From Gemmatimonadota bacterium (GTDB lineage Bacteria > Gemmatimonadota > Gemmatimonadetes > Gemmatimonadales > Gemmatimonadaceae), in the NCBI GenBank assembly GCA_027307165.1, contig DAHUXM010000004.1, positions 62,001-126,000 of the forward strand: DNA of 64,000 bases, in the 5' to 3' direction. The position numbers were made by a program, and so were the translations under genes. Each line of letters starts with the position of its first letter. Within the stretch, counting starts at the first letter, position 1. Positions 6,463 to 20,594 of this stretch are shown piece by piece. The notes under the pieces are model-generated. The model did not search any database. It worked only from the letters and a program-made list of their open reading frames with translations, and had not been told where the DNA came from.

Positions 6463-6493
6463 CAAAACGGGCGCGCCTTTCGGCGCGCCCGTT
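6463..6493 (-). terminator. Rho-independent terminator after LVIVD gene copy 1
   Basis: A perfect 12-base-pair stem (AACGGGCGCGCC, 6466-6477, with 6482-6493) has a four-base loop. On the minus strand it is followed by TTTTGC. It lies 38 bases beyond the stop of the gene ending at 6531, in the right orientation to end the DUF305-LVIVD transcript. Confidence 0.85.
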
Positions 6494-6530: not shown

Positions 6531-8489
6531 CTACTTGGTTTCCAGTCGCTTGACCACTGCCGCCAGCGCATGAACGCGCCTTGCATCGCTCGCACCAGAT
6601 GCGTCGTGATCGAGCTCTCCAGCGAGCGTCTTGAGTGCAGCGGTGCGCTTCGCACCACTCATCCGCTCAGCGCTCTTGAGCGCCGTCATGATTGCTGTCG
6701 TGCGCGCTGCCGGTAGTCCGTTGTCACGCACGAGCTGATCGACGTATGCGCGGGCGACAGGGAAGGCAGCAGGCCACACGAGCTTGGGCTGACTCTGCGG
6801 GTTATAGCGATCGAACCGCACGAGATTCGCGGCATCGATCTCGTTCTGCGTGAGGTCGGCGGTCGGCGTCAACTTGAACACGTCGAGTCCGCGTGCGATC
6901 TCCGAGCCGTAGATGTAGCCATTGTAGTAGTAACCGGCCCAGTATCCGCCGATCACCAGCTTCGATGCGTCGATCGGACCGCGATCGAAGTACGCGATTT
7001 CCTTCGGGTGCGCGGGATTGGTGAAGTCGAACACCGACACACCACCCTGATACCATCCCTGCACCATGATGTCGCGGCCCGGCACGGGGATCAATCCGCC
7101 GTTGTGCGCAACACAGTTCTCGGTCGAGGTCTGCGCAGCGGGCATCTTGAAGTAGCCGACGTGATCGAGCTTCCGGTTGCGAAGTGTGAAGATCGCGTCT
7201 GCACCCCAGTCGATCGGATCGGTTGCGCGGCACTTGGGCTGCGTACCACCGCCCCACTCGTCGGTGTAGAGCAGACTCGTGGCGTCGTTGTTGAAGGTCG
7301 CCGAGTGCCAGAAGGAGAAGTTGGAATCTGCTACGGCCTGTATGCGGACAGGATGGGTCGGATCCTTGATGTCGAGCAGGAGTCCGTATCCCGAGCACGC
7401 GCCAGCAGCGAGCCCGGCATTCGGATACACCGTGATGTCGTGGCACTGTGACGGACCACCGCGTGCCTGACCACCGCCCATCATTCCACGGACGTGTACG
7501 CCCAACTTCTCGAGCGAGTCGATTGCGCCGCGAGTGCGCGCAGTGTCATCGCGATGCTCCTGTATGTCCACAAGCAGCTGCGCGGCGTGATCCGAATCGG
7601 CAGCGGTCGCCGTCGCCGGAAGCCCGAGCCGTCCGAGGAAGCCACGTGCCGCCTTCACCGCGGCACCGTTGGCTGTGTCGGCGTATGCAACACCGTGCGT
7701 CGGAGGAGCCGTGAGGTCGTTGAAGATGCGGGCGGTGCTGACGATCTTGGACTGCTCCGGATGCGCGAGCGGAACTCGAATTACTTCGAGTCGGAACTGC
7801 GCACTATTCGGATCGTCGATGCCGCCGTTCTCGCAGCTTGCCATCTCATTCTTGGATCGCACGCGCGCGAGTCCGGACACGTACACGTAAACGACCGACT
7901 TGTCGATCGGATCCGGTACGAGAGTGTGCGTATGCGAGCCGCGGCATGTCTGAACGTCGGCAACCTGCTTGGGATGCATGGGGTCGGCGATGTCGAAGAT
8001 GCGAATGCCCAGCATCCGCTCCTTGCTCACGCTGTCCTTGATCCCCTGGCTTCCGCAGTCGAGCCGGTTTCCCGTGTTCTCCGCCGAGACGAAGAGAAGG
8101 TGGCCGTAGATGGATACGTCGCCCTGCTCGGTGAAGCAGGCGTACGCCTCGGTGATCCTGGGCTGGAGCGGGTTGGCGATGTCCCAGATCTGGAAGCCGC
8201 TGAAATTTCCCTGGTACAGATAGTGGCCGCCGAACGCCATGTCGGAATTCGCGTATGTCAGGCCGCCCGGCGCGTTGGGCTTGAACACTTCCGGCTTGTT
8301 GCGGTGCGCCACGAGAGTCAGACCCTTCGAGGCTACACCTGCGTCGTACAACCCCGGCTTGAGGCCGACGCGCGGGTCGTTGGTGCTGGATTGGGCGTGC
8401 GCCGGCATGGCCAGCGCTAGCGACGCGGCGGCGCAGAACAGCGTCCGCAGCGTCGCGCGGGTACGAAACGATTCCTGCTTCTGTGTCAT
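6531..8489 (-). CDS. Secreted LVIVD-type beta-propeller protein, copy 1
   Basis: 652 residues with a signal peptide ending near AMPAHAQ (about residue 32). Repeated segments of the LVIVD type (GFQIWDIANPLQP, GIRIFDIADPMHPKQV, GVSVFDFTNPAHPKEIAYFD) predict a beta-propeller exported to the periplasm or surface. Conserved spots include CRGSHTHTLVPDP and CVAHNGGLIPVPGRD, with histidines that could bind metal. The start overlaps the stop of the DUF305 gene by four bases. A paralogue at 18157-19941 has the same partner. The C-terminal 100 residues are helical and resemble a linker or docking region. Function is unknown; no enzyme motif was recognised. Confidence 0.8.
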   Translation of the reverse strand: MTQKQESFRTRATLRTLFCAAASLALAMPAHAQSSTNDPRVGLKPGLYDAGVASKGLTLVAHRNKPEVFKPNAPGGLTYANSDMAFGGHYLYQGNFSGFQIWDIANPLQPRITEAYACFTEQGDVSIYGHLLFVSAENTGNRLDCGSQGIKDSVSKERMLGIRIFDIADPMHPKQVADVQTCRGSHTHTLVPDPIDKSVVYVYVSGLARVRSKNEMASCENGGIDDPNSAQFRLEVIRVPLAHPEQSKIVSTARIFNDLTAPPTHGVAYADTANGAAVKAARGFLGRLGLPATATAADSDHAAQLLVDIQEHRDDTARTRGAIDSLEKLGVHVRGMMGGGQARGGPSQCHDITVYPNAGLAAGACSGYGLLLDIKDPTHPVRIQAVADSNFSFWHSATFNNDATSLLYTDEWGGGTQPKCRATDPIDWGADAIFTLRNRKLDHVGYFKMPAAQTSTENCVAHNGGLIPVPGRDIMVQGWYQGGVSVFDFTNPAHPKEIAYFDRGPIDASKLVIGGYWAGYYYNGYIYGSEIARGLDVFKLTPTADLTQNEIDAANLVRFDRYNPQSQPKLVWPAAFPVARAYVDQLVRDNGLPAARTTAIMTALKSAERMSGAKRTAALKTLAGELDHDASGASDARRVHALAAVVKRLETK

Positions 8490-9178
8490 CTGGTTTGACT
8501 CGGGGTGAGCGTGTTCAACATGGCCTGCATTCGCGCCATCTCGGCGCGCTGGCCCGCATCGACATCGGTTGCGAAGCTGAAGAGCTCCGGCTGTTGCCCC
8601 GCGCCTGGAGTGGCGAAGAGTTTGGCGACCATGTCGAGAGCGCCTTGGTGATGCTTGATCATTCCGGTGAGATACAGATGATCGAATGTCGGACCGCGAG
8701 CGGAATCGAGCTGCCGCATCTCCGCGGGTGTGAGCATTCCGGCCATCATCATCATGTGGTCACCCATGTCCATGCCCGGCATGTTCATTCCGCTCCGGTC
8801 GTGGATCGGGCCGCGCGTAGGATGCAGCATGTCGAGCGGGTCCGGCGTCGCGAGATGGCGCTGCTCCAGCCAGCTCTGCATCATCGTGATCTCGTCGCGC
8901 TGCGAGAGAGCGATGCGCTTGCAGAGGATCTGCAGATTGGGCCGCGCGCCGTGAGTGGCCGCCCAGTCGGACATCACGACGGCCTGTGCATGATGGATGA
9001 TCATGCCCTGCACGAAGTCGACGTCGGCCTGGACGTAATCATGTGGTGCTGCTGCACTGTGCGCCGAAGCCTTTTGTGCGGCTTGCGCAGGCAATTGCAC
9101 GGAAGCGCCAATCGAAACTGCCACCAGAGCCATGGCAGTAACTGACGCTGCAGCGTGCTTACATCGTGGTATGAACAT
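8486..9178 (-). CDS. DUF305 periplasmic protein, copy 1
   Basis: 230 residues from ATG at 9178 (GTG directly before it is an alternative). An N-terminal signal peptide ends near AQAAQ. Two DUF305 half-repeats are visible: FVQGMIIHHAQAVVMSDWA and LTGMIKHHQGALDMV. Between them lies a Met/His-rich stretch (NMPGMDMGDHMMMMAGM). DUF305 proteins include the cyanobacterial periplasmic copper-binding protein CopM, so copper or another soft metal is the likely ligand; that is an inference for this gene. It overlaps the downstream LVIVD gene by four bases. The same pair recurs at 18157-20594. Confidence 0.85.
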   Translation of the reverse strand: MFIPRCKHAAASVTAMALVAVSIGASVQLPAQAAQKASAHSAAAPHDYVQADVDFVQGMIIHHAQAVVMSDWAATHGARPNLQILCKRIALSQRDEITMMQSWLEQRHLATPDPLDMLHPTRGPIHDRSGMNMPGMDMGDHMMMMAGMLTPAEMRQLDSARGPTFDHLYLTGMIKHHQGALDMVAKLFATPGAGQQPELFSFATDVDAGQRAEMARMQAMLNTLTPSQTR

Positions 9179-9492
9179 CACGGAATCTGGAACCTGAGCT
9201 TGTGACGAAGAGGGGTGGCCAGTTCAGAAGTATGGCCATCCATACAAATGTACGCCAGCCACTTGGCAGGCGTTGCGGGCCCGGCAGGCTCGGTCGACGA
9301 GCTCTCGTGCGTTCGCGTACCGACGCCCTTTTCTTTGACACCGCGCTTGCGAGCCGTTTTCGCTTGCCATATTGCAACGGCAATTCAAGGCCGTAACGGG
9401 CCATCACGCGAACATCATGGCGCCATAACGCGTAGTTGGTCGCTGAGTGTTTCGGTCGTCGTGCTCGCTGTGGCCGGCCTCGCCACCGCCAA
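9179..9492. other. Intergenic region, no gene supported
   Basis: This stretch separates the start of DUF305 copy 1 from the 3' end of the glycosidase gene. Short open frames exist on both strands but show no family resemblance, signal peptide or ribosome binding site. Two TGGCCA hexamers (9216-9221 and 9233-9238) lie upstream of the DUF305 start. It presumably holds the promoter of the DUF305-LVIVD operon, but I could not fix its position. Confidence 0.4.
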
Positions 9493-11196
9493 TTACGGCA
9501 GCCCGACGCCGTCGGGGCTCACCCAGTTGAAACTGCGTTCTTCGTTTCCCAGTCTCCACTGTTCGGGATAGACGGTACGCTGCCAATCGAGCGGCTCGCC
9601 TTGCGGCTGGCGCGTTGCAGCGAGCGCGAGTGCATTTCGGAGATCCGCGCGCTGCTGGACGCCGAGTGCATCCGGTGCGAGCGATACGAAGAGCGTCGTG
9701 CCGCTTCGGGCAAGCAGGTCGAGCCACTGCCGATTGAACATCCATGGAATGTCGTTCGTCACGCCCACGCAATCGGCATCGGCGGCGTAGAACGCGTCAT
9801 GCTGCGCACCGCGGAAGGCGAGCGAGTTCACGCCCATCTTTCGCGTGCGTGCCCAGTCGGTGCCACTGGTATCGTCGCCGATCCTGCACAGCTCGAAGTG
9901 TCCCGCCGACAGGTGGCTCACCGTATTGCATCCGATGACGAGGCTCTTGCCGGCAGCTGCACGGATGATTCCGTAGAGATCATTTATCACTTCCGCCGTC
10001 GTACTGCCCGTGCCGGACGCGAATCTCCAATCACCGCGCGTTAGATCGGTGTCCATCTGAAAGCCCCAGCGACCGAATATGTCGAAGGTCGTATAGTCGT
10101 GCTTGATCAGCTCGAAGCCCCATTCGCGTAACCGCGCGATGTCGTTGGCGATCTTCTGGCGCACTTCTGGTACTGTTGGGTCGAGTACGGTGCGTGTACG
10201 CGCCAAACGCCAGCTGTCCGGAGTGTCCGCCGTCGGCTGCAGTGGACGAATCCACACGCCGGCACGTGCGCCGATGTTTCTGATGTCGGCGGTGAGGCCT
10301 GGCATGTCCGGGAATTTTTCGTTGCCACGATCCCATGTCCCGGCGCCGGTCTCATCCTTTCCGCGTCCTGGCTGCCATCCGTCATCGATCACGACGAATG
10401 GCCGGTTCTTCCCCGCGGGTGAGAGCTCGACGATGTGACGAGCATCGACGCGTACCGAATCGGCGCTGTTCTTTCCGTATGCCCAGTACCAGTCGTTGCT
10501 TCCATAAACCGGTTGCGACGGAAGTCGCGGGTCGGGACACATCTGGCGACAGAACGAATGCACGGCCGCGAACGCAGACTCGCCTTCGCGGCCGGCACGA
10601 CAGACAATGTCACAGACGTCGAGAGTGCGCTCACTGAGCTGCACGCCCAGAGCGCCGCTCCTCACATCCGCGCAAAGGCTGATGCCATGTCTGTCGATCT
10701 GCCAGAAGCAGAATGCATTGGCGCCAGTACGAACTCCATATGTATTCGTGTGAGTGCCATCGTGCGTCGCGAAGTACCATGGCATGACGCGGTCGGGGAT
10801 CCACGTACGCCACTCGAGATCGCCGTACGCGCGCTCCCATGCGTCACCCATGATGAGACGCACGCCGGCCATGTCGCCGCGCCAGCGGAGATACAATCGT
10901 TTTATCGCGGTCGACGGCGCTGAAAGCGCTACGTGAAGCGTCCGGGTCCGTATCGACGTCGTGATGACCACGCCGGCATCGCTCGTCCAGTTCTCGCCTG
11001 CGTGGTGATCGAGCGATTGATTGCCTGTGGTCGTCTGGACGATCACGCGATCCGGCATGCGAAGCAGGTCAAGAAAGCCGTTGCGCGGTTGCGGCACGGA
11101 TAATTCCCGCGCCGCGCTGGACACATCAGGGATCGGCATCATCAGGCCGAGTGCAGACAGGGTCGCCTGCTCCACAAATTCACGCCGTGAGGTCAT
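9493..11196 (-). CDS. Tat-exported clan GH-D glycoside hydrolase (alpha-galactosidase-like)
   Basis: 567 residues from MTSRREFVEQ; the twin-arginine signal SRREFVEQATLSALGLMM at the very N-terminus decides this start over longer ones. The C-terminal (beta/alpha)8 barrel shows FVVIDDGWQPG (about 267-277), the nucleophile motif IKHDY with Asp367 and the acid/base motif RIGDD with Asp441/442. These are hallmarks of GH27/GH36 enzymes, which hydrolyse alpha-galactosides or related sugars with retention. The N-terminal 220 residues would form the beta-sandwich. Substrate is not certain. The gene is divergent from a secreted hydrolase at 11360. Confidence 0.8.
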   Translation of the reverse strand: MTSRREFVEQATLSALGLMMPIPDVSSAARELSVPQPRNGFLDLLRMPDRVIVQTTTGNQSLDHHAGENWTSDAGVVITTSIRTRTLHVALSAPSTAIKRLYLRWRGDMAGVRLIMGDAWERAYGDLEWRTWIPDRVMPWYFATHDGTHTNTYGVRTGANAFCFWQIDRHGISLCADVRSGALGVQLSERTLDVCDIVCRAGREGESAFAAVHSFCRQMCPDPRLPSQPVYGSNDWYWAYGKNSADSVRVDARHIVELSPAGKNRPFVVIDDGWQPGRGKDETGAGTWDRGNEKFPDMPGLTADIRNIGARAGVWIRPLQPTADTPDSWRLARTRTVLDPTVPEVRQKIANDIARLREWGFELIKHDYTTFDIFGRWGFQMDTDLTRGDWRFASGTGSTTAEVINDLYGIIRAAAGKSLVIGCNTVSHLSAGHFELCRIGDDTSGTDWARTRKMGVNSLAFRGAQHDAFYAADADCVGVTNDIPWMFNRQWLDLLARSGTTLFVSLAPDALGVQQRADLRNALALAATRQPQGEPLDWQRTVYPEQWRLGNEERSFNWVSPDGVGLP

Positions 11197-11359
11197 GCGC
11201 CGAATATGCGTCCGACCGATGCGCGTGGGGAAGGCCGCGTGATAATACATTGCGCGGACGGGCTCAACGAGTCGCGACATCGGGGCGTATTCTTGTGCGT
11301 ACCAGGACGGCCCTCGGGATGATCTCCTCACGATCATCTTTTCCCCGAAACGGTTTCTC

Positions 11360-12430
11360 ATGCGAAAGTCCTCCCTCTTTGTTTCTGCCGCTGCGCTCGT
11401 GTTTATTCCGGCGGCGAGCCAGGCGCAAACCGCCGCCCCCTGCACGCACGCCACTACGGCTTGCGAACAATGGATAGTCTTTGGTAGTGGACCAGCGCGG
11501 TCGATGGTCTATTCGACATACTCGCTGGACAAGCCGAATCCGGCGATGACACGCGCGCTCATCATGGTCCACGGCGCGAATCGCAATGCGGATCACTACT
11601 TCGAGACCGCAACGTCGGCGGGATTTCTCGCCAATGCGCTCAACAACACTGTCATCATCGCGCCACACTTTACGGCTGGCAAGGACAAGCCGGCGGCGAA
11701 CGAGGTGATGTGGCCCGAACGACGTGACAGCTGGCGATCGGGTGGCATGTCGCCGACCAATCCGGATCTCTCCGCATTTGATTTTGTCGACGAGATCGTA
11801 CGCAAGCTTGCGAACAAGAAGAATTTCCCGAATCTCAAGCACATCGTCGTCACGGGACATTCAGCGGGCGGACAGTTCGCGACGCGCTACGAGATGGCGA
11901 ACACGGTCGACGGGACGCTCAAGGGTGTGACGATGAGCTACGCCGTTGCCAATCCGTCGAGCTACGCATGGCCGGCTGCTGTGCGGCCGCTGCCTACGGG
12001 CAACGCAGATCCAGTCGATGCATACAAGGAAGCGCTGGGCCCGAATGGAGAGAAGGTGAACGCGGATTTCACCTATGGCCCGTTCGACTCGACCAGGGTT
12101 GCGACGTACAATCAGTGGCCGTCCGGTCTCGAGAATCGCAACTCCTACACTGCGAAGATGTCGGACGAGCAGCTGAAGAAGCAGCTGGTCGAGCGTCCGA
12201 CGACATACCTCCTTGGCCAGGTGGACGTACTGCCGCTCGGCGGATTCGATTCATCGCCGTCCGCGATGGCGCAGGGCCCGACGCGACGCGCGCGCGGCGA
12301 AGCGTTCTTCAAATATGTCAACGAGACGCTCGGCGCCAGGCACAAGGCGATCATCGTTCCGGAGTGCGGTCACAACGACCGCTGCATCTTCACGACGGAC
12401 GAAGTCTTCCCGGTGATATTTCCGAAGTAA
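11360..12430 (+). CDS. Secreted alpha/beta hydrolase
   Basis: 356 residues with a cleavable signal peptide (cleavage near SQAQ, residue 23). The fold shows ALIMVHGANRNAD as the oxyanion strand-loop and the nucleophile elbow GHSAGG with Ser168. A late ECGHNDRC provides a candidate catalytic His near the C-terminus. Cysteines at 28 and 35 and near the end could form disulfides. The enzyme is probably a periplasmic or extracellular esterase/peptidase-like hydrolase; the substrate is unknown. It is transcribed away from the Tat-exported glycosidase, so both could share a regulatory region at 11197-11359. Confidence 0.8.
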   Translation: MRKSSLFVSAAALVFIPAASQAQTAAPCTHATTACEQWIVFGSGPARSMVYSTYSLDKPNPAMTRALIMVHGANRNADHYFETATSAGFLANALNNTVIIAPHFTAGKDKPAANEVMWPERRDSWRSGGMSPTNPDLSAFDFVDEIVRKLANKKNFPNLKHIVVTGHSAGGQFATRYEMANTVDGTLKGVTMSYAVANPSSYAWPAAVRPLPTGNADPVDAYKEALGPNGEKVNADFTYGPFDSTRVATYNQWPSGLENRNSYTAKMSDEQLKKQLVERPTTYLLGQVDVLPLGGFDSSPSAMAQGPTRRARGEAFFKYVNETLGARHKAIIVPECGHNDRCIFTTDEVFPVIFPK

Positions 12431-12461
12431 TTGCACCTGTACCATTCCACGCGTCGTCCGT

Positions 12462-13001
12462 TCAGGTGTCACTGGCCGTGCGAGCACTCGGCACCGAGTA
12501 GTAAAGGCCAACCATCCCGCTCGGGTACACGTGGGAACCGGTCAGCGTAAGCACGGTCCGTACGCCGCGCGGCAGTAGTCGAACACCTTCGCCGAGCAGC
12601 ACCGGAACGACAGTGACTTCGACAGCGTCAACCTGTCCAGCGGCGAGGAGATCGCCGAACAGCACGCCGCCGCCGAACAACCAGATGTCACCATCTCCAG
12701 ATTCTGCTCGGAGCGCCGCCACCACGCCCGCCGCGTCGTCGCGCACGATGGTTACTCCCGGGTGTTCCTCCGGCCGGAGGGTGTGCGAGAAGACATACAC
12801 GCGTGTTCCCGCTGACCACGGTACCTCGGGCACCGCGCGCGCCACCTCGTAGCTGCGGCGTCCCAGTAGCACCGTGTCGACACGCGCGAAGATCGATGCG
12901 AAATCGACTGTTGCGTCCTCCGGAATCCAGTCGTACTCGCCATTGGGGCCGGCGATGTAGCCGTCGAGGCTTGCTGCTACGTTGTAACGTACTCGGCGCA
13001 T
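12462..13001 (-). CDS. Dihydrofolate-reductase-like (RibD C-terminal domain) protein
   Basis: 179 residues starting at MRRVRYNVAASLDGYIAG; longer starts add an unrelated tail. The N-terminal SLDGYIAGPNGEYDWI and the later DTVLLGRRSYEVA and DIWLFGGGVLFGDLLAAGQVDAVEVTVVPVLLGEGVRL match the RibD_C/YyaP-YwjB family of NAD(P)H-binding reductases. Members are fold relatives of dihydrofolate reductase, most with no known substrate. The gene converges with the secreted hydrolase at 11360-12430, their ends 31 bases apart. Confidence 0.85.
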   Translation of the reverse strand: MRRVRYNVAASLDGYIAGPNGEYDWIPEDATVDFASIFARVDTVLLGRRSYEVARAVPEVPWSAGTRVYVFSHTLRPEEHPGVTIVRDDAAGVVAALRAESGDGDIWLFGGGVLFGDLLAAGQVDAVEVTVVPVLLGEGVRLLPRGVRTVLTLTGSHVYPSGMVGLYYSVPSARTASDT

Positions 13002-13033
13002 TGTTTCAATCCTGCTCAGGCAGTTGGCGGTAG

Positions 13034-13627
13034 TCACACGGAGACCTGGGCGGCCTTCGCGCTGCGTCGTCGATATGCGTGTACAAAAGTCGGAATATCG
13101 GATTCCCACTCATTGATGATAACGGAGATCGTCAGGCCTTCAATATCCGCTACGATGCCAAGATAGATCGCCGCCGATACCGCGACACCGGATGATCCCA
13201 GCGCGAGCAGCGAGAAGATGCCCACGAACAGTGCAATTCCCCAGAGCTTGGAAGACCACATGTGATAACTCGCTTCGCGCCCGAATTTGCGAAGATCGAA
13301 GATGTACCGTACGACTTCCAAACCTGCGAGAGCCACCAGCGCTACCATGTGCTGCAAGATTACCGATGGATAGAGATGCCACGCCGCGAACGCAGTGCAT
13401 AGATAGAATATTGTGTCGGCGATGCTGTCCAGCCGGCGCAGAATCGGTGTCGCAACGTTCATGCGCCGCGCAAGAATGCCATCGAAAATGTCGGAGACAA
13501 ACGCGGCGATGAGGCATGCACCGAACGCAGGCCGGCTCGGGTGGAAGATTGCCAGAAGTACGACGACAGGAGCCAGTAGCGCGCGAAGTGCGGTGAGGGC
13601 GAGGGGAACGTCTGAATAGCGGGGCAT
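13034..13627 (-). CDS. CDP-alcohol phosphatidyltransferase-like membrane protein
   Basis: 197 residues from the ATG at 13627; a GTG at 13657 would add ten residues. About five to six hydrophobic helices are visible. The signature motif D-x2-DG-x2-AR-x8-G-x3-D-x3-D is present as DIFDGILAR followed by RRLDSIAD. The conserved Gly is Leu here, while all four acidic residues are intact. The family joins CDP-diacylglycerol or CDP-alcohols with an alcohol to make phospholipids in the inner membrane. The alcohol is not identifiable, and the Gly change leaves activity open. Confidence 0.75.
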   Translation of the reverse strand: MPRYSDVPLALTALRALLAPVVVLLAIFHPSRPAFGACLIAAFVSDIFDGILARRMNVATPILRRLDSIADTIFYLCTAFAAWHLYPSVILQHMVALVALAGLEVVRYIFDLRKFGREASYHMWSSKLWGIALFVGIFSLLALGSSGVAVSAAIYLGIVADIEGLTISVIINEWESDIPTFVHAYRRRSAKAAQVSV

Positions 13628-13719
13628 ATGAGAAAGGAAGTTGTAATCGTCTGACACGAATGTTGATTCATGTCTGATGCCGCCGTCCGTCCGGGTGAAT
13701 AGTCAACCGTATAGCACGC

Positions 13720-14265
13720 CTACGAAGTGACAAGCTTTGCCAACTGAGTCGAGCATTCAGCGACGCCACCAGTCAGATTTAGCGCCGAGTAAAGTACCAA
13801 CGCTTCTTGCAAGAGCGGACGAGCCGCATCGACGTCGCCAATTTCCATCATGAGGAGCGCAAATGGCCTGATCGCATTGGCGAGATCAAGGACTTTCGTA
13901 TTCAGGTCCTGACGGTAAATCGTGATCGCCTCTGCAAGCAGCGTCCTGGCCTGTTCCGTGTGGCCATTTTCCCGATAGATGTCACCCAGGTGTCTCGCAG
14001 TGTGGGCGATCGCAAGCGGGTCACCATGATGGCGACAGATAGCGAGAGCATCGGCGTAATGCTGCTGAGCGTGGTCGAGATCCCCGCGATCGCGTTGTAG
14101 CTGACCAAGGCCAACGAGCGCGGAAATCAGATCCTGTTCCAGTCCCGCTGAGCGTGACAGTTCGGCTGCTTCTTGATATGCAGCGTATGCGTCATTCAGA
14201 CGTTGCTCGCGCCGAGCTCGAGTACCGCGTGCTATCAAATCTGCTACATCTTCTGGCATGTGCAT
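13720..14265 (-). CDS. Tetratricopeptide-repeat protein
   Basis: 181 residues from ATG 14265 (a GTG precedes it and another ATG lies at 14259). Three to four TPR units are visible, for example AYAAYQEAAELSRSAG, ISALVGLGQLQRDRGDLDHAQQHY and TARHLGDIYRENGHTEQARTLL. There is no signal peptide, so it is probably cytoplasmic and mediates protein contacts. The partner is unknown. It stands alone between a phospholipid-synthase-like gene and a LURP-one-like gene. Confidence 0.75.
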   Translation of the reverse strand: MHMPEDVADLIARGTRARREQRLNDAYAAYQEAAELSRSAGLEQDLISALVGLGQLQRDRGDLDHAQQHYADALAICRHHGDPLAIAHTARHLGDIYRENGHTEQARTLLAEAITIYRQDLNTKVLDLANAIRPFALLMMEIGDVDAARPLLQEALVLYSALNLTGGVAECSTQLAKLVTS

Positions 14266-14332
14266 CACCCCTCGAGCAGAGACATCACTTTATTGCCTCA
14301 AATAGAATGGAACGGGATGTATGGACAGACGC

Positions 14333-14827
14333 TCAATGGCGCCTCCCATCATCCGGATGGCACGCTTCATCAACGACTACCGCACTCGCCAGTACCAGCA
14401 CCTGATCTTCCTCCGGTGCGATCTCGATTCCGTAAGTATCCGCCCAGGTGAACCACTTCTTCGAGACGGTTGCAACGGGTAGCGTGCCTCGCCGGAAAAC
14501 ATACTCGTGGTCGGTAAAGTTTCCTTCCGCTTCCAGATCGTCCGGCCCGGGGACGTCCACGTTAAACCGGTGATGGACCAGCGAGAAGAGATGCTTCTGC
14601 ACAACCGCCGCTATCTGACCGTTTCGGATGATCTCGTACGTCTTTCCCCAGGCGAACACGCGTTGCTTGATGAACGCAAGCTCGTTGCGCTCGAGATCCT
14701 GGAACGACATTTGATTGCCGAAGCTGAACACCTTGCCGTCGACGAAATAGAGGTCGCGGCCGGATTCGTCCTTGATGAAGAAATCGTCGCCGAGCGAAAA
14801 CAGCTTCTGCTTCAGGATGTAGCGCAT
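14333..14827 (-). CDS. LURP-one-related (YxjI-like) protein
   Basis: 164 residues. MRYILKQKLFSLGDDFFIKDESG, followed by DLYFVDGKVFSFGNQMSFQD and ELAFIKQRVFAWGKTYEI, is the classical LOR/YxjI beta-barrel pattern. That fold is related to Tubby and phospholipid scramblases. The C-terminal WFTWADTYGIEIAPEEDQVLVLASAVVVDEA completes the fold. Cellular function in bacteria is not known; membrane association or ligand binding is often suggested. It begins 43 bases beyond the end of the flippase-like gene and reads in the same direction. Confidence 0.85.
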   Translation of the reverse strand: MRYILKQKLFSLGDDFFIKDESGRDLYFVDGKVFSFGNQMSFQDLERNELAFIKQRVFAWGKTYEIIRNGQIAAVVQKHLFSLVHHRFNVDVPGPDDLEAEGNFTDHEYVFRRGTLPVATVSKKWFTWADTYGIEIAPEEDQVLVLASAVVVDEACHPDDGRRH

Positions 14828-14869
14828 GGTCCGGGGGTGAAAGATGCGTGTATTGAAGGATGCGCTCGC

Positions 14870-15838
14870 TCACGTCTCGACTTCCTGCGCGAGTTGATCG
14901 GCGGCTGCTCGCGCATGGCGGCGCTTTCGGAAGATCAGGACAGTCACGGCAGGAACGACGTCGAGTACCGTCGACCACACGCGCGCGATGAGGACGACTA
15001 TCAGCACGTCCGCAGCGTTCATGCCCGCGTTGTGAAGAATCGCCTGCATCACTCCTTCTCTCGCACCCAGCCCGGCTGGAGATACGACTGCGATCAAGCC
15101 GGCGAGAAACGATCCACTCCACGCAGCGATGTACGAGCTGATCGAAGCCACGGGTGACGGCAGAAGCGCACCGCCGAGTGCGTAGAATGCCGCGCCCCAC
15201 ATGACCCAGTTGCCGACCGAGGTCCAGATCAACATCCACATCGTGCCAACGGTCACTGAAGTGACATCGGGCCAGTGCCGGGTGATCAACTGTCGCAGGC
15301 GATCGGACGATTTGATGATCACCGGACACAGGAGCAGGATCGTCACACCGATCAACGGCAATGCCAGCCACGGCGTGGGCAGACCGACGAGGGCGCCGCC
15401 AGCCGCGAACAACACGATCGCGCCGACACCGACGCCTATGACACCCTGGAAGAGCGAGCTTGCAGTGATGGCGGCGGCTGGAAGGTCGTGCTCTGCCGCC
15501 ATCACGCCGATGATGCCCATCTGCCATGCCTTCCCGCCCGGCAGATAGCGCCCGAGGTTGCTTACGAGAAAGAAGCGAATCAGTTGCCACAGCGGAACTC
15601 GAATGCCTGCATCGTTGAGGAGGCGTCGCCATCCGATCACATAGAATGCATGTCCGAGCGCTCCCAATACGACCGACAGTGCAACCCACGTCCAGCGTAC
15701 GTGAGCGCTGCGCCAGGCGTCGACCGCCGCCGGTCCATCCCGCCGGATCGACTGGACGAGCACAACCAGAATCAGGACCGTGAGAATCGCTGCGACGATT
15801 CGAAGGATGCCGCGGATTTGAGCTCTAGCCATCATCAT
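14870..15838 (-). CDS. Lysylphosphatidylglycerol-synthase-TM-region (flippase-like) membrane protein
   Basis: 322 residues with about eight hydrophobic helices. The motifs NLGRYLPGGKAWQ (about 93-105) and VVSPAGLGAREGVM (about 250-263) are typical of the UPF0104/LPG_synthase_TM family, which includes the flippase half of MprF and GT-associated membrane proteins. No aminoacyl-transferase domain is attached. It may move lipids or isoprenoid-linked intermediates across the inner membrane; that is an inference. The start is one of three consecutive ATG codons; I took the first. Confidence 0.85.
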   Translation of the reverse strand: MMMARAQIRGILRIVAAILTVLILVVLVQSIRRDGPAAVDAWRSAHVRWTWVALSVVLGALGHAFYVIGWRRLLNDAGIRVPLWQLIRFFLVSNLGRYLPGGKAWQMGIIGVMAAEHDLPAAAITASSLFQGVIGVGVGAIVLFAAGGALVGLPTPWLALPLIGVTILLLCPVIIKSSDRLRQLITRHWPDVTSVTVGTMWMLIWTSVGNWVMWGAAFYALGGALLPSPVASISSYIAAWSGSFLAGLIAVVSPAGLGAREGVMQAILHNAGMNAADVLIVVLIARVWSTVLDVVPAVTVLIFRKRRHARAAADQLAQEVET

Positions 15839-16267
15839 GGTTGAATTTCGTGCACGTACCTATCTCCGCGAAAGTCCCGCATGTCGCTACCGGGCTTGCC
15901 GGCAAGGCTTGTCAGACTCCGATCCATCGCAGAAGTCGGTCCAGATGCTTCACGTCAATATCGCTTATTTGTGCGGAGTTGACGGCGGGACGAGGCAGTG
16001 TGGATGCCTGCTTACTTCGCCCGGGCAGCGTCACGGGTCCGGTGACAGATACAAAGCACCACGACGAGGACGGCAACGTGACCTCGAGCCGCCAGCACTC
16101 GCTGGCTGACCATCCGCCTTTACTTATCGAGCCGCGTGCTCTGTCGCGTAACGAGCACGTGCAGGTTGTGGCATGTAGTAGTATATCCCTGATCGCCTGG
16201 CCCGGAAAAATTCGCTCGGGAATCTAGGCATGCGTGCTCTTTGGTTCAGTAACGAGGCCGATCCAAC
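15839..16267. other. Gene-poor stretch with only unconvincing open frames
   Basis: About 430 bases between the flippase-like gene and a truncated methyltransferase. Open frames are present on both strands (for example 15841-16227 plus), but their products are low-complexity, rich in Arg/Ser/His and resemble nothing I know. Together with the broken gene that follows, the stretch looks like decaying sequence. Confidence 0.4.
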
Positions 16268-16504
16268 ATGGGACTCAAACGTTTGGCGAATTTCAACGAC
16301 CCTGCGTCGCTCGCAAGTCGCATGCGCCGTAAAAGGTTCGCGTTGTTCCGCGGGTTGATAGAGAAGCTCCCACGAGGGTCGTCGGTGCTTGACGTCGGCG
16401 GAACTCCACAATTCTGGGAAGGCGAGACGCTTGTGACGACTGGTGCGATTAGCGTTCGGCAGACGAGTCATGATTCTACCAGCGAGAGCAGAAGGTCGCG
16501 GTAG
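16268..16504 (+). pseudogene. Truncated class I methyltransferase, N-terminal fragment
   Basis: 78 codons. Residues 1-60 read MGLKRLANFNDPASLASR, then RFALFRGLIEKLP, then SSVLDVGGTPQFWEGE. That is the normal N-terminus of a SAM-dependent methyltransferase family up to motif I (LDVGG). After about residue 60 similarity stops and the frame ends, eight bases before the 3' end of an unrelated methyltransferase on the opposite strand. A complete member would have about 200 or more residues, so this is a remnant left by a deletion. It is probably not functional. Confidence 0.6.
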
Positions 16505-16511
16505 GGGCAAG

Positions 16512-17279
16512 TCAGGAAACGCGAGCGCGAACTATCAGAAACTCGGGTTGCTGGAGCAGCCGGCGGTACGCGTCCGGATCGATGAGTCGAAAAGCCTCCG
16601 TCGGTCTCGGCTCGACAAGCCGCTCGATCACGAATCCAACGTCGGTCAGCGCCGACGCTATCTCGGTAAGCGGTCGCCGATAGAACTTTACCTTGCCGAC
16701 CCACTTCCAGTCGTCTTCCACGAGTTGAGTTTCGTAGTATGGGCTGCTCGGAAAGCGCGCCGCGTCTGCGCCTGGATGGTGCGTGGACAACAGTAACCAG
16801 CCGCCAGGCTTGAGGACCCGTCGGATCTCTCGCAGCGTCGGGCGCCAGTCCTCGAGATAATGAAGGACGAGTGGTGATACTACACCGTCCACGCTCGCGT
16901 CCGTCAGAAACGCCAGCGGTTCGGCGAGATTCGCTACTCGCACACGCAGCCGTGCAGAGTCACCTGTGAGAAAGGACGAGAGACGACGACGGGCGTGCTC
17001 GACGAGCGCGGCGCTGGCATCGATCGCCGTAACATTCGCCCCACGCCCCACCAATTGCGCCGCGTACCATCCGCCACCGCAGCCAGCGTCGAGAATGTGA
17101 CGGTCCGCGACCGGTGGCAGCAGAGCGAGCATGGCAGGCCGTTCGTACAACGCATTGTACGGAGCTTCGTCTACCGCCGCCGCATATCGCGCCGCAAAAT
17201 CGGGATCGACGTACGAGTCAGTGATCGTGAGCAGTGTTTTGCCGTTGGTTGAAATGTGTGGAATGCGGGGTTCAGGCAT
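16512..17279 (-). CDS. SAM-dependent methyltransferase
   Basis: 255 residues from MPEPRIPHIS. Motif I is HILDAGCGGGWYAAQLVGRGANVTAID, followed by the motif II/post region DGVVSPLVLHYLEDW and the motif III segment LKPGGWLLLSTHHPG. This is a complete class I Rossmann methyltransferase of the Methyltransf_11/25 type. The methyl acceptor is unknown. No signal peptide or membrane helix is present. The gene lies tail to tail with the truncated methyltransferase, but the two sequences differ, so one is not a duplicate of the other. Confidence 0.85.
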   Translation of the reverse strand: MPEPRIPHISTNGKTLLTITDSYVDPDFAARYAAAVDEAPYNALYERPAMLALLPPVADRHILDAGCGGGWYAAQLVGRGANVTAIDASAALVEHARRRLSSFLTGDSARLRVRVANLAEPLAFLTDASVDGVVSPLVLHYLEDWRPTLREIRRVLKPGGWLLLSTHHPGADAARFPSSPYYETQLVEDDWKWVGKVKFYRRPLTEIASALTDVGFVIERLVEPRPTEAFRLIDPDAYRRLLQQPEFLIVRARVS

Positions 17280-17311
17280 ACCGCTCGCGCGTACGATATG
17301 GCCGGCGCCTA

Positions 17312-17827
17312 TTACGCCTTGGCATCCGTCGCTCGCGCTATGCGTGCAGTTACCGATAACTGACCGACATGACGCATCGAGTGTTCCGCACCATGCACAA
17401 GGCACCCGATCACCGTCGAAGGGAGCTTTGCACGTCCGACTGCGCGAAAGTCGCCCAGTGTCGCGACATCTGTCGTGCGAAGCTCGGCGATCGCCGAGTC
17501 GACGCGCGCTGACAGTGCGTCGAGCACTGCCGCGACGTCGGAGGCAGGTAGATGATCGCCTTCGGACCGAATCGCCAAGAACTGTTCCGGTGACAGGCCG
17601 TCACCTCGTGCGTAGGTGAAGAGGCGATCGATGACACCAGTCATGTGGCGCACGTGAAATGCACACGACGCAACGTTGGCCGGACGCGCGTTCCACTCGG
17701 CTTCAGTCAGATTCGCGGTCAGCTCGCCGACACTTTCCCGGACCTGGAGGAGGATGTGCGCCACCGGCTGCAGGAGCGAAGGAACACCCTCGACGGGACC
17801 GCGCTGCCACCACTCTGTATTTGCCAT
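17312..17827 (-). CDS. DinB-like protein
   Basis: 171 residues from MANTEWWQRG; an upstream in-frame extension lacks family character. Features of the DinB_2/DUF664 four-helix bundle are CAFHVRHMTGVIDRLFTYARG and CLVHGAEHSMRHVGQLSVTARI. The histidines in HVRH and HGAEHSMRH fit the metal site. It may be a thiol- or metal-dependent enzyme, but no substrate is known. It reads in the same direction as the methyltransferase gene, 32 bases away, so the two probably form an operon. Confidence 0.8.
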   Translation of the reverse strand: MANTEWWQRGPVEGVPSLLQPVAHILLQVRESVGELTANLTEAEWNARPANVASCAFHVRHMTGVIDRLFTYARGDGLSPEQFLAIRSEGDHLPASDVAAVLDALSARVDSAIAELRTTDVATLGDFRAVGRAKLPSTVIGCLVHGAEHSMRHVGQLSVTARIARATDAKA

Positions 17828-17937
17828 TATCTGCTCGTATTTGATTTTTGTGTCGCCATGACATGCTATCGACACGCCGGTTGACCGCTTATGAAAATTC
17901 GAAAATCTCCGTTCCCTGACTGACGTCGGGCGGAGGT

Positions 17938-17953
17938 CATTGTATCTACAATG
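17938..17953. promoter_or_regulatory. 16-base perfect palindrome upstream of the DinB-methyltransferase operon
   Basis: CATTGTATCTACAATG has two 7-base arms around TC. It lies 111 bases before the DinB start, in the 329-base gap at 17828-18156 that otherwise holds only a terminator. A length and symmetry like this are typical of a dimeric repressor operator. No cognate regulator gene is adjacent. Confidence 0.5.
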
Positions 17954-18044
17954 TACCTACGCTGAAAACGGGAGTGCAAGAACGTGACGTATGTCACACC
18001 GTTACTGGTGCGCGCATACGCGATGTCGCCGACAGATCCCGGGC

Positions 18045-18094
18045 AAACAAAACCGCGGATCGCAGTGCTGACGTCAGCGTGGCGATCCGCGGTT
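18045..18094 (-). terminator. Rho-independent terminator after LVIVD gene copy 2
   Basis: A 13-base stem (AACCGCGGATCGC, 18051-18063, with 18082-18094) surrounds a second small palindrome (GCTGACGTCAGC, 18067-18078). On the minus strand it is followed by TTGTTTGC. It lies about 60 bases beyond the stop at 18157, the same arrangement as for copy 1 but with a different stem sequence. Confidence 0.8.
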
Positions 18095-18156
18095 CTATCA
18101 AGTGCTATCCGACGTTGTGATAGTCGGTCACACGTGCATCCTCTTCACATTGCGTG

Positions 18157-19941
18157 CTACTCGGTCGCCTTGGCGAGAGCCGTGATTGCCGCCGCCATCG
18201 ACTTGACTCGCGCCTGATCGTGTGCGCCATTCGCGTCCTTGTTCACCTGTGCGGCCAGCGTCTGAAGTGAGGCGCGCCGCTGCGAGCCGTTCTGCTTCTC
18301 CGCGGCGTCGAGCGCTTTCGCGATTGCTGTCGCACGCTCCGTGGCAAGGCCGTTGCCGCGAACTAGTTGGTCCAGATACGAGCGGACAACGGGGAACGCC
18401 GCCGGCCACACGATGTGCGGCTGGCTCTGCGGATTGTACTGCTCCAGATGCACGAGCTTCGCCGCTGCGATCTCGTTCGCGGAGAGCTGATCGCTTGGCG
18501 TGAGCTCGTAGATGTCGAATCCGCGATCGAGCTCCGACGAATAGATCAATCCGTTCCACCAGTAAGCGCCCCACGATCCACCAATCGTACCGCGCGTGCC
18601 ACGATCACCCTCTGGCGCAGTGGGCGCGGCGTCGATCGGTCCGCGGTCGAAGTATGCCAGCTCCTTTGGATGGTCGGGGTCCGTGAAGTCGATGACGTTC
18701 ACTCCACCCTGATACCAGCCCTGCGCCATGATGTCGCGGCCAGGCACCGGGATGAGCCCACCGTTGTGCGAAACGCAGTTTTCCTGCGCCGACTGCGCCG
18801 TCGGGATCTTGAAGTACGCGTGTTGAGTGAGCTTCCGCTTCGAGTCGATCGTCAGGGTGGTGTTTCCGCCCATCTCCATCATCGACGTTGCCTGGCACAT
18901 CGGACCCGTACCACCGCCCCACTCATCGGTGAACACGACTTGCTTGCCGTCGTTGCTGAACACGGCTGTGTGCCAGAGCGAGAAGTTCGTATCGGAGACT
19001 GCGTCGAGACGTACCGGCTTCAGCGGATTCGAGATATCCACCAGCAGCCCGTAGCTCGCACACGCTCCGGCAAGGAGGTTCATGGCCGGATACGCCGTGA
19101 CGTCGTGGCAGTTTCGCGGCCCGGTTGGAGGCGCTGGCTCTTCTCCGGCGGGACGGGCGCGGCCGGGCCTGCCGGTTGCTCGAGGTGCGGCGCCGAGCCC
19201 GGTGAAGATGCGTGCACCCGTCACCACTTCGGATTGCTCGGGATGCGCAAGCGGCACTCGGATCACGTCGAGCCGGTAAAGCGAGTTGTTGACGTCTGCG
19301 GGGTCCGTTCCGTTATTGCAACCCGCGAGCTCGGTGGCCGGGCGCGCCTCCTGATTGCCGGAGACGTAGATGTATATGACACCCTTGTCCCTGGGATCGG
19401 GAACGATCGTGTGAGTGTGCGATCCCTTGCACGTCTGCACGTTCTTGATGAGCCGCGGCGCGGCTGGATTGGATACGTCGTAGATGCGGACGCCAGCCAT
19501 GTGGTCCTTTGGATCCTGCACGCCGCCCTTTGCGCAGTCGTTGCGATTTCCGCGACCTTCTGCAGAGATGAAGAGCAGGTTTCCGTACACTGACGGGTCA
19601 GCCTGCGCGGTGATGCACGACACCACAGCGACCGTCTTCGGCGCGACCGGGTTGCTAACGTCCCATACCGTGAACCCGGCAAAGTTGCCCTGATAGACGT
19701 ACTTGTTGCTGAAGGCAAGATCCGAGTTGATGAACGTCAGACCACGTGCCGTGTCGAACGCGGCCGGCTTGGGCGAGAATGAAACGAGGCGCATGTTCTC
19801 GGCGGCTGTCCCTGCGTCGAACCGGCCCGGCTTGAGGCCGGACCGAGGATCAGTGGTGCTCGGATACGTCTGCGCGGCGAGGACCGCAGGCACGAGAACA
19901 AGGGGCGCGATCAACGCGAACATCCGGCGGGCGAGGTGCAT
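18157..19941 (-). CDS. Secreted LVIVD-type beta-propeller protein, copy 2
   Basis: 594 residues from MHLARRMFALIAP, with a signal peptide ending near VLAAQ. It is paralogous to the protein at 6531-8489 along its whole length. Shared blocks include DPRSGLKPGRFDAG, YQGNFAGFTVWDVSNPVAPK, CKGSHTHTIVPDP, CVSHNGGLIPVPGRDIM and AYFDRGPID. It lacks about 50 residues in the central linker relative to copy 1, where it has a Pro/Arg-rich stretch instead. The gene starts 32 bases after a DUF305 gene. Export and propeller fold are well supported; function is not known. Confidence 0.8.
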   Translation of the reverse strand: MHLARRMFALIAPLVLVPAVLAAQTYPSTTDPRSGLKPGRFDAGTAAENMRLVSFSPKPAAFDTARGLTFINSDLAFSNKYVYQGNFAGFTVWDVSNPVAPKTVAVVSCITAQADPSVYGNLLFISAEGRGNRNDCAKGGVQDPKDHMAGVRIYDVSNPAAPRLIKNVQTCKGSHTHTIVPDPRDKGVIYIYVSGNQEARPATELAGCNNGTDPADVNNSLYRLDVIRVPLAHPEQSEVVTGARIFTGLGAAPRATGRPGRARPAGEEPAPPTGPRNCHDVTAYPAMNLLAGACASYGLLVDISNPLKPVRLDAVSDTNFSLWHTAVFSNDGKQVVFTDEWGGGTGPMCQATSMMEMGGNTTLTIDSKRKLTQHAYFKIPTAQSAQENCVSHNGGLIPVPGRDIMAQGWYQGGVNVIDFTDPDHPKELAYFDRGPIDAAPTAPEGDRGTRGTIGGSWGAYWWNGLIYSSELDRGFDIYELTPSDQLSANEIAAAKLVHLEQYNPQSQPHIVWPAAFPVVRSYLDQLVRGNGLATERATAIAKALDAAEKQNGSQRRASLQTLAAQVNKDANGAHDQARVKSMAAAITALAKATE

Positions 19942-19973
19942 CAGGAAGAACTCCGGGTGGTGTGTTAAAGTGG

Positions 19974-20594
19974 TCAGTTCTCGGGCAACTTCGAAAGCAT
20001 CTGCCGCATCGCGTTGATCTCGGCGGTCTGAACCGCGACAACATCGTTCGCGAACACGTTCACGTCCACGTCCTGCGCGGTTCCGGGCGTGGCAAAAAGA
20101 TCGTCGACCATTTTCAGCGCGCCCTCGTGGTGCTGGATCATCAGCGTGAGGTACGCGCGGTCGAATGCGGTGCCGCTCGCAGCGTCGAGCTGCTTGAGCT
20201 GTGCCGCGGTCAGCATCCCCGGCATCGTCACGGTGTGCCACGACGACGAGTCCGGCGCTACCTGTCCGTTCCGGATGAGCCACTCCTGCATGATCCGGAT
20301 CTCGGCGACCTGCGACTGATCGATCTTGTCCGCGAGCTTGAGTACGCGGGGATCGGCCTGGTGCGCGGCGGCCATGCGCGACATGTAGATGGCCTGCCCG
20401 TGATGGGCGATCATCCCTTGCATGAACTCGACGTCAGGCACCGTGTAGAGCACGCCCTTGGGGATCGTGATGTGACCATGGTCGCCCATGTTCATTCCCG
20501 CCATCGAGCCTTGCGCATGTGCGGTGGCCGGCTGGCGGACAAGTATCAGCCCAAGTGCAACGAGGGCGGTAGCGGAGAGGCGAGAGAGATTCAC
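19974..20594 (-). CDS. DUF305 periplasmic protein, copy 2
   Basis: 206 residues if translation starts at the GTG at 20594, which puts a signal peptide (NLSRLSATALVALGLILV, cleavage near AHAQ) at the N-terminus; an upstream ATG at 20711 would bury it. The DUF305 halves are FMQGMIAHHGQAIYMSRMAA and LTLMIQHHEGALKMVDDLFA. MAGMNMGDHGH near the mature N-terminus is a possible metal-binding stretch. It is similar to copy 1 at 8486-9178 but has fewer methionines in the middle. It is probably co-transcribed with the LVIVD gene downstream. Confidence 0.8.
   Translation of the reverse strand: MNLSRLSATALVALGLILVRQPATAHAQGSMAGMNMGDHGHITIPKGVLYTVPDVEFMQGMIAHHGQAIYMSRMAAAHQADPRVLKLADKIDQSQVAEIRIMQEWLIRNGQVAPDSSSWHTVTMPGMLTAAQLKQLDAASGTAFDRAYLTLMIQHHEGALKMVDDLFATPGTAQDVDVNVFANDVVAVQTAEINAMRQMLSKLPEN

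Follow-up and report, generated by a model that had tools for sequence, protein, structure and literature searches.

The 64-kb window analysed here, a stretch of Gemmatimonadota DNA (contig 28 of genome G000; GC content about 61%), carries two copies of a gene pair on its minus strand, at 6531-9178 (copy 1) and 18157-20594 (copy 2). In each copy, a gene for a DUF305 protein is followed by one for a protein of the LVIVD beta-propeller family. The pair constitutes an obligate unit in Gemmatimonadota, and its two members are inherited together as cognate partners. The favoured reading of the module is that of a secreted metal carrier (the DUF305 protein) with a metal-propeller client, copper being the best-guess metal; we assign it a probability of roughly 45%.

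Pairing of DUF305 and LVIVD genes

Relatives of the LVIVD gene were found in 337 of the 395 genomes of the phylum. When strong matches alone were counted in a set of 150 genomes, 123 contained both DUF305 and LVIVD genes, none contained DUF305 only, one contained LVIVD only (G115), and 26 contained neither. In 40 loci picked by their DUF305 match alone, every one of the 41 DUF305 genes was followed by an LVIVD gene on the same strand within 250 nucleotides (nt), and the spacing between the conserved regions ranged from 20 to 247 nt (median 81). An earlier note on this DNA, made from its letters alone, had taken rare adjacency in other genomes as the outcome that would speak against a fixed unit; adjacency is instead the rule.

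Eight examined LVIVD genes lacked a DUF305 gene immediately upstream on the same strand. A DUF305 gene was present elsewhere in the locus for four of them, and none was seen in the stretch read for the other four. Three of the former four loci are LVIVD-DUF305-LVIVD arrays. In the arrays L153, L156 and L016, an additional LVIVD gene lies directly upstream of a DUF305-LVIVD pair.

No third conserved gene was detected near the pairs across the loci examined, and copper genes were not recurrent neighbours there. The largest cluster of neighbours (54 loci) was discarded because, as judged by eye, it seems to be a shadow frame antisense to the propeller gene. No DUF305-LVIVD fusion proteins were found. 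A link to aerobic respiration could not be drawn from COX1 (PF00115), which is present in 147 of the 150 genomes and is therefore uninformative. A link to the copper chaperone SCO1 (PF02630; 114 of 150 genomes) was rejected, as at least 16 genomes without SCO1 have the module. SCO1 does not track the module, and it doubles as a control for the co-occurrence of DUF305. Several search matches were reported with internal stops; the one case checked by its coordinates (L106) is no readthrough, its aligned stretch simply taking in the gene's own stop codon.

The contig scan covered Gemmatimonadota, one contig labelled Kuenenia and one other bacterium. The contig labelled Candidatus Kuenenia (L080) bears a typical Gemmatimonadota pair and is probably an assembly binning error. 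In the actinomycete Nonomuraea gerenzanensis (Actinomycetota), LVIVD genes adjoin DUF305 genes at two loci, in divergent orientation. That the pairing recurs in another phylum with a different gene order speaks for a link of function rather than of position. DUF305 matches occur in 594 plasmid records, of which only that of N. gerenzanensis also matches LVIVD, and this implies that DUF305 has other roles as well. The record concerned (NZ_LT559118.1, with loci L173, L174 and L175) is filed as a plasmid, but at 11.85 Mb it has the size of a chromosome.

Paralogy and cognate subfamilies

The two propellers of the window are 43-50% identical over their full length (E 1e-133) and the two DUF305 proteins are 43% identical (E 1e-40), in agreement with the whole-length paralogy proposed in the earlier note. 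That note also described the module as present twice. This is correct for the window; the genome holds a third pair on contig 35 (L105:7014-9820), whose propeller is 49-56% identical to those of the window. All three LVIVD relatives and all three strong DUF305 genes of this genome are paired.

Clustering of 120 sequence-distinct modules separated the LVIVD proteins into three main subfamilies, comprising 67 (A), 34 (C) and 18 (B) modules, and one outlier. Copy 2 of the window belongs to subfamily A, copy 1 to subfamily B and the contig-35 copy to subfamily C. The LVIVD subfamily matches the DUF305 subfamily in all 119 modules of the three subfamilies, and the adjusted Rand index between the two sets of clusters is 1.0 (four clusters). 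Because the subfamilies coexist within genomes, this matching is not due to species relatedness alone. The mirror-tree correlation between the two families is also high (r 0.91); it partly reflects shared ancestry, and subfamily matching is the better test. A recent local duplication in the window is ruled out, since its two propellers are only about 52% identical in this comparison and fall in subfamilies A and B, each of which is phylum-wide. The three subfamilies are ancient, and the pairs are co-inherited as cognate units. The fixed two-protein unit suggested in the earlier note thus finds strong support in co-occurrence, in adjacency, in the cognate subfamilies and in the separate arrangement in the other phylum.

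Predicted structure and invariant residues of the propeller

The Pfam LVIVD profile (PF08309) matches the copy-2 propeller with 33.9 bits (cut-off 20.2) and gives no match to copy 1; 43 of 45 family members match it at E <= 0.01. An AlphaFold2 model of the copy-2 propeller, computed from 45 sequences, predicts seven blades (predicted local distance difference test, pLDDT, 88; predicted template-modelling score, pTM, 0.90), followed by a helical region from about residue 488. This C-terminal domain (window:18157-18486, about 105 residues) has no Pfam match; it is filled in 137 of the 140 sequences of the family alignment and mostly absent in Nonomuraea.

Four histidines, H175, H279, H324 and H392 (numbering of copy 2, P0005), are invariant in all 140 propeller sequences. 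According to DSSP assignments on the copy-2 model, they are predicted to lie where the inner strands of blades 3, 4, 5 and 6, respectively, begin. The conserved propeller histidines listed in the earlier note include two of these four. H177 is conserved in 94% of the sequences; D74, Q113, D280, E340, N393 and W457 are also invariant (140/140), and D115 is nearly so. Eight cysteines are conserved, with C171 displaced by one residue in Nonomuraea, and the propeller is probably stabilised by disulfides.

Relatives of the propeller

The window propellers score 39.7 and 37.9 bits against the choice-of-anchor B family (TIGR04312), below its cut-off of 100. A profile comparison with hhalign aligns the two families over the whole propeller (98.4%, E 8e-15, 345 columns). 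Judged by these alignments, choice-of-anchor B and the LVIVD family are sister families, homologous but separate. The equivalents of H177, H279, H324, E340, H392 and W457 are identical in choice-of-anchor B, whereas the position of H175 is occupied by Asn, which makes H175 specific to the DUF305-linked family. Pairing with DUF305 is not expected for choice-of-anchor B proteins, of which genome G017 has 26 matches versus one DUF305 gene. Some Gemmatimonadota genomes contain 10 to 26 such matches (loci L176-L190), which share most of the histidine ring.

The nearest solved structure, both in the sequence-profile search of the PDB (5hrm, E 3.6e-4) and in the Foldseek search (E 7.6e-15, against 2.7e-8 for the next match), is the phosphotriesterase of Sphingobium TCM1, a haloalkylphosphorus hydrolase (5hrm, 5ioj). 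According to a title cited in PMC11656708, the metal centre of this enzyme is binuclear and sits in a seven-bladed propeller. The LVIVD protein resembles it in the seven-bladed fold and in a putative metal site; however, identity is 16%, and the sequence-aligned part is confined to blades 6-7. We know of no DUF305 partner of the Sphingobium enzyme.

A functional parallel only is offered by the selenium-binding protein/methanethiol oxidase SELENBP1/MtoX, which has seven blades and conserved histidines; this copper thiol oxidase propeller has a conserved His/Asp/Glu pocket that surrounds its copper site (PMC10362175). Membership of the MtoX/SBP56 family (NF052453) was rejected, with 17.2 bits for copy 1 against a cut-off of 650 and no match for copy 2; nor did hhalign reveal a relation at the family level, yielding 57.7% over a local stretch of 148 columns only. 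A search with VIA-align returned generic WD40 propellers only, with Z about 30.

Resemblance of the DUF305 proteins to CopM

Both DUF305 proteins exceed the cut-off of the Pfam profile by a wide margin (PF03713; 131.6 bits for copy 1 and 136 bits for copy 2, cut-off 27) and score below the cut-off of 90 for NCBIfam CopM (NF049983; 81.5 and 83.2 bits). Among their relatives in the PDB are CopM (5fej and others) and the DUF305 entries 3bt5 and 2qf9, and an AlphaFold2 model of the copy-1 protein (pLDDT 81) predicts four main helices. The motif MxxHH is present in both halves of both proteins, along with further invariant Met, and at least 133 of 134 relatives keep the HH of each half.

A Met/His-rich stretch forms the linker of the copy-1 protein (MNMPGMDMGDHMMMM) and the N-terminus of the copy-2 protein (MAGMNMGDHGH). 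The earlier note had one copy richer in Met; the stretches do differ, but as a subfamily trait. In subfamily A they are N-terminal (mean 3.0 Met and 2.5 His); subfamilies B and C have them in the linker that joins the two DUF305 halves (about 5 Met and 2.5-4 His).

CopM, encoded in the Synechocystis copMRS operon, is a periplasmic protein with a role in copper resistance; it binds Cu(I) with a dissociation constant of about 3e-16 M (PMC4335983). Of the Cu(II) sites tested in it, the MxxHH motif is the strongest, and crystals soaked in copper led to the proposal of a second copper site in its Met/His linker (PMC11836926). The window proteins share with CopM the DUF305 fold, two halves with MxxHH, a Met/His-rich linker and export, and the linker of copy 1 resembles that of CopM in composition and position. 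They differ from it in their sub-cut-off scores and in the partner gene, which encodes a propeller and not a copper regulator or efflux protein. The analogy with CopM drawn in the earlier note finds support at the level of the family, on the basis of the sub-threshold score, both MxxHH motifs and the Met/His-rich segment.

Organization of the window

The coordinates of the paired genes are collected in Table 1. As anticipated in the earlier note, each pair has DUF305 first and the propeller second and is followed by a strong hairpin. The start of the LVIVD gene overlaps the DUF305 stop by 4 nt (ATGA) in copy 1, and 32 nt separate the DUF305 stop from the LVIVD ATG in copy 2. None of 200 shuffles reached an equal fold energy for either of the hairpins 3' of the propeller genes; that of copy 1 is not listed in the consensus terminator scan because its T tract has just 4 T. 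The N-termini of all four proteins resemble Sec signal peptides, as judged by eye, in line with the export proposed earlier.

Table 1. Coordinates of the DUF305-LVIVD pairs, their hairpins and the Nonomuraea loci.
Feature	Position	Strand	Details
DUF305 gene, copy 1 (subfamily B)	8486..9178	-	ATG 9178, stop 8486
LVIVD propeller gene, copy 1 (subfamily B)	6531..8489	-	in 140-sequence family alignment
Intrinsic-terminator-like hairpin after copy 1	6466..6493	-	fold -27.2 kcal/mol, z -4.0
DUF305 gene, copy 2 (subfamily A)	19974..20594	-	GTG 20594 (start inferred), stop 19974
LVIVD propeller gene, copy 2 (subfamily A)	18157..19941	-	ATG 19941, stop 18157
Intrinsic-terminator-like hairpin after copy 2	18046..18099	-	fold -36.7 kcal/mol, z -8.2
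DUF305 gene, Nonomuraea L173	5720-5085	-	
LVIVD genes, Nonomuraea L173	5884-7281 and 7374-8756	+	
DUF305 gene, Nonomuraea L175	7728-7057	-	
LVIVD gene, Nonomuraea L175	7758-9140	+	

The genes between and around the pairs are unrelated to them and encode melibiase-like, alpha/beta hydrolase, RibD_C, CDP-alcohol transferase, LURP-one, LPG synthase TM, methyltransferase, DinB, cupin and GNAT proteins. No copper efflux, sensor or regulator gene was found among the ten neighbour proteins scanned in the window. Gene order is retained in the sister species (G022), with 93-98% nucleotide identity across most of the region. The ratio of non-synonymous to synonymous substitutions (dN/dS) against this species, computed for both LVIVD genes and for copy-1 DUF305, ranges from 0.05 to 0.13 and is 0.06 for the copy-1 LVIVD gene, indicating that the pair genes are under purifying selection.

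Proposed function

Each pair may represent a secreted metal module that is complete with its two proteins. One of them, the DUF305 protein, would be a CopM-like four-helix binder of copper or a similar soft metal, with its two MxxHH motifs and the flexible Met/His-rich segment as metal sites. In the propeller, the inner-strand histidines of blades 3-6, together with the invariant Asp, Gln, Glu and Trp, could form a hub metal site, most likely loaded or maintained by the DUF305 protein, and the propeller would be the working protein, either an enzyme or a metal sink. The fixed pairing, the partner from the CopM family and the invariant histidine ring together suggest that the propeller is probably metal-dependent and has its own metal carrier; the obligate pairing, the joint inheritance of cognate partners, the export signals judged by eye, the invariant residues and the predicted seven-bladed fold are what the analysis shows, whereas metal binding, the identity of copper, the hand-over between the two proteins and any catalysis are what we infer. 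Three points weigh against this reading. The histidine pattern is largely common to choice-of-anchor B propellers, the presence of more than 20 of these beside a single DUF305 gene in G017 implies that the ring itself needs no DUF305, and copper genes are not conserved neighbours of the pairs in the loci examined. It is doubtful, although conceivable, that the LVIVD partner represents a new class of exported copper enzymes, built as a propeller with a four-His hub site, and this DUF305 branch its dedicated metallochaperone, the two being kept as cognate partners in Gemmatimonadota and in at least one actinomycete.

Both proteins might instead be metal sinks that shield the envelope from copper or silver in the manner of CopM, with no enzyme involved. 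Membership of the DUF305/CopM family and the Met/His-rich segments are consistent with such sequestration, as is the copper sensitivity of CopM mutants (PMC4335983). We consider it unlikely, given that copper efflux and sensor genes are missing both from the ten window neighbours and from the conserved neighbours, that a module found in nearly all genomes of the phylum hardly looks like an accessory trait for resistance, and that an invariant ring under strong purifying selection resembles an active site rather than a sink. The match to the Sphingobium phosphotriesterase, first in the PDB profile search and ahead by about six orders of magnitude in Foldseek, raises the alternative of a hydrolase dependent on Mn, Zn or Ca, for which DUF305 would be a structural subunit or a general metal supplier. 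The low identity and the restriction of the sequence alignment to two blades, as well as an obligate partner from a soft-metal (copper) family, render this quite improbable. Least probable is a metal-free scaffold or surface-binding pair, in which the propeller would bind a polymer or protein and the conserved residues would be structural. Propellers are frequently scaffolds, the WD40 matches are generic, and the choice-of-anchor B relatives have, from the family name, varied surface anchors; a scaffold would nevertheless have no need of invariant histidines at equivalent positions of four blades or of hub Asp and Glu, and the obligate DUF305 partner would be left unexplained.

Both domain families are known. 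In the literature searched, to which subscription journals were mostly external, no paper was found on DUF305 with LVIVD, on Gemmatimonas with LVIVD or on choice-of-anchor B, and the pairing of the two families was thus not encountered. Outside the copper-binding CopM, no function has so far been assigned to DUF305. The strict and ancient one-to-one pairing provides the DUF305 and propeller families with a testable partner, in a module carried by the majority of genomes in a large, little-studied phylum of soil and freshwater, and H175, H279, H324 and H392 constitute a concrete candidate active site.

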